64,000 nt of DNA from Spinacia oleracea (taxonomy: Eukaryota > Streptophyta > Magnoliopsida > Caryophyllales > Amaranthaceae), in the NCBI RefSeq assembly GCF_020520425.1, contig NC_079492.1, forward strand, positions 143,224,361-143,288,360. Direction: 5' to 3'. Positions 40,704 through 46,629 of this stretch are shown piece after piece. Both the position numbers and the translations under genes were made by a program. Every line of letters begins with the position of its first letter. Positions within the stretch are counted from its first letter, which is position 1. The notes below the pieces were generated by a model, which saw nothing but the letters and a program-made list of their open reading frames with translations, was not told the DNA's origin and made no database searches.

Positions 40704-40930
40704 TTATTATTATTATTATTATTATTATTATTATTATTATTATTATTATTATTATTATTATTATTATTATTATTATTATTATTATTATTATTATTATTAT
40801 TATTATTATTATTATTTTTATTTTTTTTATTATTATTATTATTATTATTTTTTTTTTATTATTATTATTATTATTATTATTATTATTATTATTATTATTA
40901 TTATTATTATTATTATTATTATTATTATTA
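40704..40930. repeat. (TTA)n microsatellite, tail of the non-LTR element
   Basis: An almost pure TTA tract, TAA on minus, interrupted by T-rich patches at 40815-40857. It abuts the 3' end of the minus-strand retrotransposon, and a short ATT tract (44803-44830) lies at the other end. Long single-residue ORFs here are artefacts. Confidence 0.9.
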
Positions 40931-41751
40931 TGCTCCGACACCCTTATTCAAAGAAAAACACAAACGATGTAAAAGAAAAGAACGAATGTTAGCAACAGCG
41001 TGTTACTCTGAGCAACCCGTGAGACCCTAGACATGAACTCTAGGGCATCACTCCCCAGTTCTTCAAAGGTGGAGAAAGCAAAAGCGATAAAACCATATCC
41101 GTTGCCTACGCACTTCGCTCATACTTCTTCTTCTTCCTAGCAACAGCATTAGCGACAGCAACCCCGGGAGAAAAAGCATCAACTCCTGGCCCGGTGAACG
41201 GAGAGATACCTGTGACATCTAAGCATACATTTTTCCCTTTGTCCCAAGAGTAGACAAGAAGGTCTGCAGGACGGAGATCTCTCCCTTCCTCAGACAGAAA
41301 TCCCCAAGGCACCTCCTTCTGCACAACAACCCCAGCCTGCGAACAAATATCCCCTAACACATCTCGAACCAAGTTATGGCGGAATTTCAGGCCAACCGCC
41401 AACATCATTACCACAATGCACTGCGTGATCCCCGAAACGATCTATGATTTTCGAAGAGCAGCAAGGACAAGTAAAGTCAGGAGGGAACATAGGAATCGCA
41501 AGGCGATAACACAAAACACACCTGAATTGTCTTGGGTGCATCGTCTGCCCTAACCCCTCAATTGGGAGGGCTCTCAAGAAGTCTAAGGAGTGTGCCGCTC
41601 GGTTGCTAATGAGTATAGCCTTTTCTCTGGAACTCGGGTTGTGCTGTCCCATCATCTTCTTCTCAACCATATGAAAGTACACTGTAGCCAACTTTTTCAT
41701 AAATGGGGGGGCTGGTACCACACGCAGAGATCGAGAGGATCGAAATGACAT
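40931..41751 (-). pseudogene. Zinc knuckle and restriction-like endonuclease of the RLE retrotransposon
   Basis: Frame 41374-41751 reads FRCVLCYRLAIPMFPPDFTC, then CPCCSSKIIDRFGDHAVHCG, a CCHC-type knuckle. After a frameshift, GLKFRHNLVRDVLGDIC and LRPADLLVYSWDKGKNVCLD follow. The PAD Asp and the Asp of LDVTG are 14 residues apart, fitting the PD-x12-14-D endonuclease core of R2-type elements. After another shift the last frame reads GNGYGFIAFAFSTFEELGSD and later LCFSLNKGVGA, and the next codons are TAA TAA TAA of the tail. Confidence 0.65.
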
Positions 41752-43681: not shown

Positions 43682-44110
43682 AACAGTATCAAAAAAGGAA
43701 GGAGAAGAGGCAACAGAGTCACCAAAAGAACCACAGAAACATCAGCCAAACCGATGAGCGGAGCAGACCTAGGAGGCTCGGGGATACCGAGGATCGCAAC
43801 CTCCTCAAAAGAAGGAGCACAAACCACCAAAACGTCAGCATGCTTACAATTCTTACTAAAAGTGTGAGTGCAAAAACACTCACCACAATGCCAAATACCA
43901 GCCTGGTGAAGCGCGGAGTCTAAAGCATAGAATAAAGAAAAATCCCTTCCAACATTGGCTTTGTGAGAAGCCTTCAAAGCACCATCTTTAAAATGACGAG
44001 CCCCCAGATGATCAATGAAATACTTCTTGGATAACCCCCTCCCACCCCCACTATTGCATCCATCACACCCTTTAAAAGGACACGAGATTTGAAGAACCAT
44101 AATATACAAC
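43585..44110 (-). pseudogene. Zinc-finger N-terminal segment of the RLE retrotransposon
   Basis: The minus frame from about 44100 reads MVLQISCPFKGCDGCN, a glycine-rich bridge and YFIDHLGARHF, giving a C2H2-like finger (C-x4-C, then H-x4-H). A second Cys/His cluster follows (CGECFCTHTFSKNCKH). It then reads SFEEVAILGIPEPPRSAPLI before the frame shifts near 43690. N-terminal fingers bind target DNA in R2-type elements. A role in site choice here is inference. Confidence 0.6.
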
Positions 44111-46629
44111 CACAAACAGGAAAAGACAAGGCTCTTAAATACCTCCCTATCCTTCAACCACAAGCAACACAAAATAGACACAAACTAGAAAGCACAACAC
44201 AATACACAGCCACAAACTAACAAAGCATCGCACAAAAACACAGCCACAAACTAGGGAGCCACACACTAGGAAGCACCGCACAAGAGAAAGTGCATCGACG
44301 CAACCCAAACAACACCAAGCCGCGTCGCAACTACAACCACTAACTAGAATTCCCGAATCACACAATTCCCTAATCGCCCACCCAGCAGCATCCCTGACCC
44401 CCAGACGAAGCAGCGAACCCCTGGGAGATGACCGCAAAAACACCACCGCAAACAGAGAAACTTAAACACGGCAAAAAATAAAGCAAACCTATGCAACGCC
44501 ACAACACCAAGGCCCGACTGCAATCCTGAGAAATTACCACCGAAAACCCTGAGCCTAACACTATCCACCGCCTGAAACTGAACCGGAAAACCGCCTGGAA
44601 ACCCGAAAGGAAATTGCACCAAAAAGTCGCACGGAACCGCCGGAAAAAGACCTGGAAATGCCGCCTGAAAACACTGTGCCCACACCTTCCTTATGCCGCC
44701 GTGAAATGCCTGAATGGCCGCCGGAAAAGCCACTGGATTATGGACGTAGGAGGTGCCCTAAACCGCCACCCATAATCGCCTAATTTGAGAGAATTTGAGA
44801 GAATTATTATGGTTATTATTATTATTATTTGTTTCCCTTTTATTTTTATTCCGTGATTTTCCCCTCATGTTTAATTTTATGTGTGTAGGTAAGAGTATCG
44901 TGGTCCATGATCGAGGGGTTATGGTCAAGAAAAGTCATTGTTGATTAAGAGAATTCTAACCCCCACATCTTAGCCTGCACCACACCATCCTCTATCCTAC
45001 ACCACACTCTCCACCAACAACAACAGCCCAGCTCCATCTCACAACACATTCCACGCAACAACCAACACTGTTACAACATCAAACAACCTACTACTGCAAC
45101 TAGCAACGCCACCAACAACAACACCAAAACGACATACTCGCAGCTGCAAAACAGAGAAAACAGAGTAATTTGAGTTTGGTCGAACCCGTATTAAGTTCGA
45201 CCGAACCCAAAATTTTGAATTCCTGACAAGGCCGGGTCCGGTCGAACCCATCGTGTGTTCGCCCAAACCACAACTAAGTTCGACCGAACCTCACAAGGGT
45301 TCGACCGGACGGTCTCGATTAAGTCTTATGAGCACCGATTTAGAGCCATTGGATTGGAGTAGAGAAAGACGACGATGGAGGTTAGATGGCCGTTGATGAT
45401 GCTTGATCGATCGTTGATGGATGATGATGATGGAAGATTGACGGTTGATGATAGATTGTTGATGATGATGGATTGATGGTGTATCGCAGGAGCAGGGACG
45501 CATCAACGAAGATGAAGGAAACAAAGAGAATGGTTTCATGGGCCTAAGGGGTTTTTTTGGGCTGATTTGTTTCATGATTGCTTGGAGTAGTTTAGTTGGG
45601 TTGGAAAAGGATTAAAGACCTAAACTTGACTATTTGGTTGAATTGGGACTTTGATTTACCTCGGGTATGATAGGGTAGAACGGGAGTTCACCCTTGATGC
45701 TTAGGGAAATTGCTCGCATGTCGGGAGATAGTTGGAGCTATTTTTGAATTCAACGCTTATTCATGTAGTGCTTGTGAATCTTCCCCATTTTCAATTATTT
45801 TATGTCCATCCCGTGATTTGTTGTTGTTTGACCCATTCCCTAATCTCGTTTACTTTTGATTTCTTAGTTTAGTTGATTTAGTTTTAGTTGGTTAGTTGAC
45901 TTTCCAACTCGTTTCGACCTAGCTTGTTGTTCGATTAGCATAAATTAGCGCACCTTAGTCCTTGTGGATTCCGATCCTTGCTTACCGCTTTACTTGTGTT
46001 TAGTGGTTAGTTTAGGTAATTTGTTTGATTAGGAGAGACTAGTAACGACCTAGTTTTCCCCGATATCACCCCAACCGCCACTTCACCACCATCGCAGATT
46101 CAAAGTCGTCGTTCCTTCATTGCCGGAGCTACTAGAGGTTATGCATCCCTAGTTGTATTGTCATGTTTGCTAATTCATTTATATCCTGATTTTCAATTAA
46201 ATCAGATTTTTTTTCGTTATGAAAAAGTAGCAATAGGATTTCAATCACTTTTGATTAATTGTTAATTATTGGAAAAAATGATGACAATCACTATCCACAT
46301 TTTCATCGTTTTTGGACAATTGTTTTTCAATTTCCAAGTCCATATGAAAATTTTATCAAATTATAATTATTGGAGACTACTCTACAACTATTGTGGAACT
46401 TTCTTTTGCAGCATTATTGTGGATTCAATTTTCGATATTTCTTTTATGTGTTGAAATAAACCGTTCAAAAAAATATGAATTGAAATATTCCATACCACTT
46501 ACTTCGTGAACACTGTGGTGGAACTGAAATGCCGGAATTGAAATTATTGATGTTTGCCAAACACTTAATTTGGAATTCAATTTCAGAATTTCAAATTTCA
46601 CATTTGAAATCCAGTAACCAAACACTACC

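Follow-up and report, generated by a model that had tools for sequence, protein, structure and literature searches.

The element in the window

A 64,000-nucleotide (64 kb) stretch of the spinach genome (Spinacia oleracea, contig NC_079492.1), referred to below as the window, holds on its minus strand a decayed copy of a non-long terminal repeat (non-LTR) retrotransposon at 40932-44806, with its 5' end near 44806. The copy is enclosed by runs of TTA on both sides (Table 1), as had been described in an earlier note made from the letters of this DNA, and these two flanks were the only runs of at least four TAA or TTA units in the window. The limits that the note gave to the element (40704-44830) enclose it but are too wide, taking in both TTA flanks. 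The reading frame is interrupted, leaving five open segments that overlap one another and a remainder, and this copy is therefore regarded as dead. It is also ~46 bases shorter at the 3' end than the rest of its family, termed family A below, and the microsatellite directly adjoins the shortened end. CAAAT was considered as a short duplication at the ends of the copy and rejected, since the match hangs on one base that is possibly a substitution.

Table 1. Features of the retrotransposon copy and of its flanks in the window (aa, amino acids; LTR, long terminal repeat; ORF, open reading frame; RLE, restriction-like endonuclease).
Feature	Positions	Strand	Evidence or remark
Left (3'-side) flank, repeated LTR-like sequence with paralogues	40465-40702		97.5% to L069, 96.2% to L068, 96.6% to L079
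(TTA)n microsatellite, ~76 units	40704-40931		Tandem Repeats Finder; (TAA)n on the sense strand of the element
RLE-type non-LTR retrotransposon, decayed, 3'-truncated by ~46 bases	40932-44806	-
Remainder of the ORF C-terminus, further frame, stopping short of the family's 3' terminus	40932-41105	-
Putative restriction-like endonuclease segment	41106-41441	-	Motifs; conserved in both A and B
Linker with Cys/His knuckle CX2CX10HX3C at 41413-41469	41374-41763	-
Reverse transcriptase segment, 558 aa stop to stop	41697-43373	-	RVT_1 2.9e-16; best structure R2
Second open segment (linker), different frame	43334-43741	-
N-terminal ORF segment, ATG at 44100	43585-44100	-
Second Cys/His cluster CGECFCTHTFSKNCKH	43840-43887	-	Read from the sequence
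Zinc-finger-like motif C-x4-C-x18-H-x4-H	43993-44082	-	Read from the sequence
5' leader, very variable among copies	44101-44806	-	CTCTCAAATTAGGCGATTATGGG near the start matches the 5' motif of other copies
5'-side flank, (TTA)5 at 44813-44827, then TTT	44807-44830		Remainder of the target microsatellite
Right (5'-side) flank, same LTR-like repeat as on the left	44831-45310		77.6% to L069 (501 columns), 93.4% to L071 (197)

Copies in the genome and two families

The assembly searched comprises 894,210,420 bases, of which C1-C6 make up 879 Mb. A query of 1 kb from the reverse transcriptase (RT) region gave 587 first-look candidates, 40 of which were scored, a set that leans towards copies like that of the window; all 40 matched, namely the window copy and 39 others, at 91-96% identity. 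Sequence was fetched around all 39, the 20 loci L009-L028 as 7 kb stretches and the other 19 in two pieces each. Full-length family-A copies such as L014 and L015 are ~4 kb long and consist of a variable leader, which opens with a short common motif (CTCTC..GGCGATTAGGG or similar), one long frame, and then (TAA)n, with only ~11 bases between the stop codon and the tract. The whole ORF was open in none of the 20 copies checked for frames (the window copy and 19 others); the longest readings came from L019, which is 5'-truncated and open throughout over 820 aa including a TAA-coded start, and from L020, in which 916 aa are still open.

A second family, B, was represented by L009, where a frame of 645 aa on the minus strand (5064-6998), counted from the end of the fetched stretch, is open through RT, knuckle and endonuclease to a stop codon followed by a TAA tract. 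The long family-A frames of L019 and L020 were 54-55% identical to family B; between the families the RT part showed 60-63% identity, and the C-terminal part 46% (L028 of A with L009 of B).

The 5' leaders (window 44101-44806, L014, L015, L048-L052, and L062) are strongly divergent while the coding parts are ~93-94% identical, pointing to either rapid turnover or exchange of leaders. At the other end, the family-A 3' terminus (e.g., L017:5549-5608) holds a GGAGCC...GGCTCC inverted repeat, inside which the window copy stops.

Protein domains

The RT motifs A, B, and C expected from the earlier note were located on the minus strand of the window (LLVDFINAF at 42660-42686, QGVQQGDPLGP at 42498-42530, and AWYLDDGT at 42405-42428), and the top match of this RT among solved structures was an R2 protein (9.2e-08), besides the RVT_1 match given in Table 1. 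A profile of the RT of both families likewise matched R2 (8.5e-08) and then L1 (2.5e-05). The RT is of the type found in long interspersed nuclear elements (LINEs) and in R2; as R2 leads but L1 is close behind, the RT alone leaves the clade unfixed.

The C-terminal region was assigned as a putative RLE from the motifs RH, PAD-x14-D, and KX2KY, with definitions taken from PMC5678591 (published work is cited here and below from excerpts of each source). In the window RH lies in 41373-41384, QKE in 41310-41321, RPAD at 41262-41273, the following D in 41214-41225, and KX2KY at 41121-41135, which places the PAD-x14-D core recognized in the earlier note within 41214-41273. RH, QKE, PAD-x14-D, and KX2KY are common to families A and B, with PAD replacing PD, and they vary in single copies (e.g., RHAD in L019 and HHN in L014). 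In R2-type proteins the lysine that begins KX2KY is the catalytic one (PMC5678591).

The N-terminal C2H2-like finger of the earlier note was recovered as a Cys/His motif, with an unusual spacing and a second cluster after it (Table 1). The 300 N-terminal residues of L020, finger region included, gave zero Pfam matches at E ≤ 10. An apurinic/apyrimidinic endonuclease (APE) upstream of the RT was not found, the 916-aa frame of L020 giving only RVT_1 at E ≤ 1. A ribozyme like that of hepatitis delta virus (HDV) was sought in the window copy, with zero Rfam matches up to E = 10, and with a descriptor of our own, which hit none of six 5' ends and 0/60 shuffles of each with a scanner run without a positive control. 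Pattern-led and tblastn searches of viral contigs, bacterial and archaeal genomes, and phage records gave no relatives.

Junctions with TAA microsatellites

A (TAA)n run of at least four units lay within 150 nt of the 3' end in every copy whose 3' end could be read (29 of the 40: the window copy, 19 of L009-L028, i.e., all but L016, and 9 of the 19 later copies). Perfect runs of at least four units were used for this judgment because the background reaches loose scores, a 60-nt score for TAA or TTA being at least 8 in 1.4% and at least 4 in 28% of background stretches. The remaining 10 fetched 3' stretches had no match to the element and were uninformative, several of them being LTR-like by eye. 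In L026 a TA run lies between the 3' end and (TAA)n. The 3' junctions of L023, L031, and L032 read TTA and then TAA, forming a local palindrome.

The 5' end lay in, or within ~40 nt of, (TAA)n in 17 of the 40 copies, ten of them by an automatic test and seven by eye. Eight of these ends carry the 5' motif (the window copy, L014, L015, L048, L049, L050, L052, and L062), one is truncated in the leader (L021), and eight are truncated in the ORF (L013, L019, L027, L055, L058, L061, L064, and L065). The ten 5' ends of the automatic test scored 10-13, compared to a maximum of 8 at 20,000 random window positions outside the element. The run adjoining all 17 junctions is TAA, not TTA, on the sense strand; the two were distinguished for L048-L066, where both were sought, and the tract of the other copies was read as TAA.

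Another member of the group lay directly beyond the 3' TAA tract in 9 of the 29 copies, recognized by sequence match in L009, L019, L021, and L034 and by reading in L011, L012, L013, L017, and L028. The automatic search for such arrays missed L011, L012, L013, and L028, partly as the searched stretch started beyond the last TAA tract. The neighbors of L012, L017, and L028 match each other, and L019 stands tail to tail with a family-B copy. With elements lying directly beyond TAA tracts, the families' own tracts seem to serve as targets. The 3' parts of family-B copies also adjoin several family-A copies.

An unoccupied site and insertions in paralogous repeats

A search with the flanks of the window copy gave 357 first-look candidates, of which 40 were scored and 12 loci returned, one being the window itself (L067) and 11 being others (L068-L078). 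In L069 the left flank (97.5%) and the right flank (77.6%) are joined by a 39-base TTA run (13 units) with no insertion. At roughly the corresponding place a TTA tract is also seen in L074 and L077, both more diverged, and neither matches the element. In the left flank L069 and L068 read CTAATTTATT where the window reads CTAATTTGTT.

Other paralogues were occupied in different ways. In L068 a short piece from the family-A 3' end lies within the tract, in L072 the end of a family-B copy lies at the tract, and L070 together with L079 holds a family-B element that has TTA at either end and shares its left and right flanks with the window copy; this element, of which ~1 kb between the two fetched pieces is unread, was 94% identical to the family-B frame of L009 over 486 aa. 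A 5'-truncated relative lies beside the right flank in L073, its continuation (L080) matching family B at 93% over 73 aa before it stops, and in L071 a 5' end was recognized only by eye; the left flank was not found for L071 and L073 in the further stretches L081 and L080. L076 and L078 showed neither a TTA tract nor an element in the stretch read, and L075 was not resolved. From these comparisons one microsatellite, present in the copies of one repeat, was hit several times, by different families and with different truncations.

Proposed mode of insertion and alternative explanations

The window copy is interpreted as a dead member of an RLE non-LTR family that inserts by target-primed reverse transcription into plant (TAA)n microsatellites, a reading to which we assign a probability of about 0.88. 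That this family chooses TAA/TTA microsatellites had been suggested in the earlier note, and the suggestion is upheld by 29 of 29 readable 3' ends, by 17 of 40 5' ends, and by the unoccupied site in L069. The note had also reckoned with two contrary outcomes. Copies lying mostly outside TAA/TTA repeats were not what the sample contained, all 29 readable 3' ends being in (TAA)n, and a tract that is merely a copied tail at a random target is contradicted by the TTA run of L069.

Target-primed reverse transcription is established for R2. By analogy with R2, and from the anatomy of the element, the endonuclease would nick the TTA strand of the microsatellite, and the freed TTA end would anneal to the UAA repeats in which the RNA ends and prime first-strand synthesis. 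The second strand would be cut within or near the same tract. Every insertion would leave terminal TAA tracts, and these seem to act in turn as sites for further insertion, which would account for the arrays in which (TAA)n stands between one element and the next. The copy in L015 is bordered on either side by GATGATAATAA, a repeat that fits a long target duplication.

Several observations weigh against this interpretation. The scored sample is skewed towards copies resembling that of the window, and the random control for the 5' test was drawn from one 64 kb window. In the automatic test seven of the 5' ends counted as TAA-flanked (the window copy, L014, L015, L048, L049, L052, and L062) had scores of only 0-7, the alignment having stopped within the highly divergent leaders, and they were accepted from the 5' motif read next to the tract. 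For 23 of the 40 copies no TAA-flanked 5' end was demonstrated. Among these L009 and L053 are probable; L010, L011, L018, L023, L024, L054, L057, and L063 look by eye as if cut by another transposon; L051 and L060 abut a family-B 3' end, L016 is fused to tRNA-Glu, and L066 is unreadable; and in L012, L017, L020, L022, L025, L026, L028, L056, and L059 other sequence was found or the 5' end lay beyond reach, L028 being the clearest exception with a 5' motif and no adjoining TAA. TTA runs also occur, just upstream of the 5' TAA run in L021 and, with at least four units, before the TAA run at the 3' ends of L023 and L032 (shorter in L031). For the protein, the endonuclease region of family B gave no sequence match to solved structures, and the GXW motif that closes the endonuclease fold was not found, FSTFGELG or FSSFGELE standing there as judged by eye. 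The CCHC knuckle of the earlier note was recovered in the window copy, its spacing being CX2CX10HX3C in family A and CX2CX11HX3C in family B rather than the usual CX2-3CX7-8HX4C.

The presence of the tract at all 29 readable 3' ends would also be expected if (TAA)n were nothing but a 3' tail of the element, copied or added at targets taken at random, as in LINEs with a simple repeat at their end. The length of the window tract points the same way, as ~76 units (and 5 more on the other side) greatly exceed the 13 units of L069, so that tail addition or slippage probably contributed. Against a tail alone, the unoccupied L069 already holds TTA repeats, the copies truncated in their ORF have 5' junctions in TAA, and the window copy is joined to TAA although its normal 3' end is missing; for this copy, the different families and truncations at one tract rule out that a tail was copied at a random site. 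As a general account of the family this explanation is very improbable, and the TAA tract is taken to be the target, probably lengthened by tail addition or slippage, and not only a copied tail. Given the same variety at one tract, simple co-duplication is unlikely. The window copy does have repeats for flanks, with their 357 first-look candidates, as spread by duplication of the host repeat or by recombination between microsatellites, with the shared flanks inherited, would require; but the tract of the same-flank paralogues holds a family-A copy in the window, a family-A fragment in L068, family B in L070/L079 and L072, and nothing in L069 and the more diverged L074 and L077, and we consider this the least probable of the explanations.

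A preference for any AT-rich or open microsatellite, of which TAA would merely be the commonest, is unlikely as well, if less so than the two foregoing. The (TA)n stretch before (TAA)n in L026 and the GATGA units at the edge of the tract in L015 are in keeping with such a preference, and a 2025 review cites microsatellites as landing pads of various plant transposons (PMC12477314). It is opposed by the 17 strict 5' junctions, which adjoin TAA and not TTA on the sense strand, and by two other repeats of the window, (AT)94 at 46909-47097 and (ATTATTT)n at 13587-14011, which are without a family-A copy.

Relationship to known elements

Among known systems, the Dong/R4 clade of animals shares with the spinach family an RT combined with an RLE and insertion into (TAA)n (PMC7998251, PMC3774820), and (TAA)n targeting by Dong has been reported in most of the insects, molluscs, and cnidarians examined (PMC7998251). 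The R4/Dong elements differ in having a diverged N-terminal Myb/SANT domain and, in the published description, no N-terminal zinc fingers (PMC7998251), whereas the spinach family has a zinc-finger-like N-terminus; the published domain was detected by HHpred, whereas the N-terminus of L020 was compared with Pfam. A 5' self-cleaving ribozyme is described for Dong (PMC3774820), while none was detected in the spinach family with the scanner run without a positive control. Finally, R4/Dong hosts are animals and the host here is a plant.

R2 is the best structure match of the RT, and RH and KX2KY occur as in RLE LINEs (PMC5678591). It differs in its 28S rDNA target, compared to 29 readable 3' ends in (TAA)n, and in the lack of a Myb match in L020. 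Microsatellite preference has been described for some HERO families and for Togen, the latter differing in its (TG)n target and fish host, and the named target-specific RLE families come from animals, oomycetes, and an amoeba in the account available (PMC4640811). Utopia differs in targeting U2 snRNA genes where the spinach copies have their 29 readable 3' ends in (TAA)n.

Plant L1 and RTE LINEs, which like the spinach families are non-LTR retrotransposons of plants, carry an APE endonuclease. They end in (A)n or (GTT)n, in contrast to (TAA)n here, and are the only LINEs named in the excerpts of a 2022 review of land-plant transposons (PMC9033089). A 2019 survey of spinach with MGEScan-nonLTR counted 642 full-length "CRE" and 22 "R2" elements (PMC6337768), CRE and R2 being among the RLE clades named in PMC4640811. 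The host of the "CRE" elements is probably the same and their mean length, taken from a table, is ~4.6 kb; in contrast to the description given here, the excerpts of that survey offer counts without target, structure, or endonuclease (PMC6337768). The 642 elements may include families A and B. In a plant atlas using the same program, CRE numbered none, one, and none in three species taken as poplar, soybean, and cotton (PMC8729191).

No report of a plant RLE LINE with a microsatellite target was found in the titles and abstract openings that searches of the open-access literature gave, Repbase excluded, and endonucleases of this type are little described from land plants. A plant RLE LINE that combines (TAA)n targeting with a zinc-finger-like N-terminus appears to be a new form of a known type of element. 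As a family that is numerous, lives in a plant, and joins a restriction-like endonuclease to a microsatellite target, it provides a second, perhaps independent, case of TAA targeting, a test of how elements read a three-base repeat, and a natural explanation for some of the long TAA tracts in the spinach genome. Excerpts of the R2 literature also show interest in site-specific RLE elements as tools for DNA insertion. We tentatively extend the interpretation to an overlooked or mislabelled RLE LINE lineage of flowering plants that acquired (TAA)n targeting independently of animal Dong, in which zinc fingers replace Myb as the reader of the microsatellite, and which builds its own landing sites and multi-family arrays; the chances of this wider proposal are somewhat below even.

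Minor observations

A tRNA-Glu (TTC) was identified by ARAGORN in L016 (2740-2813, plus strand), fused to a 5'-truncated family-A copy and lying just downstream of a family-B 3' end. The fusion resembles a tRNA-LINE chimera such as those that may give rise to short interspersed nuclear elements.

Besides the (AT)94 microsatellite, which no family-A copy adjoins, and the ATTATTT array of ~61 units, the window contains two arrays of similar CGGAAATATT-type units (30763-30950 and 37952-38242), ~7 kb apart. In two plus-strand regions, 2066-2539 and 6655-7152, Plant mobile domain (E = 0.041) and Ulp1 protease (E = 0.0016) were matched weakly, both below the curated cut-off; the regions are possibly transposon-derived.

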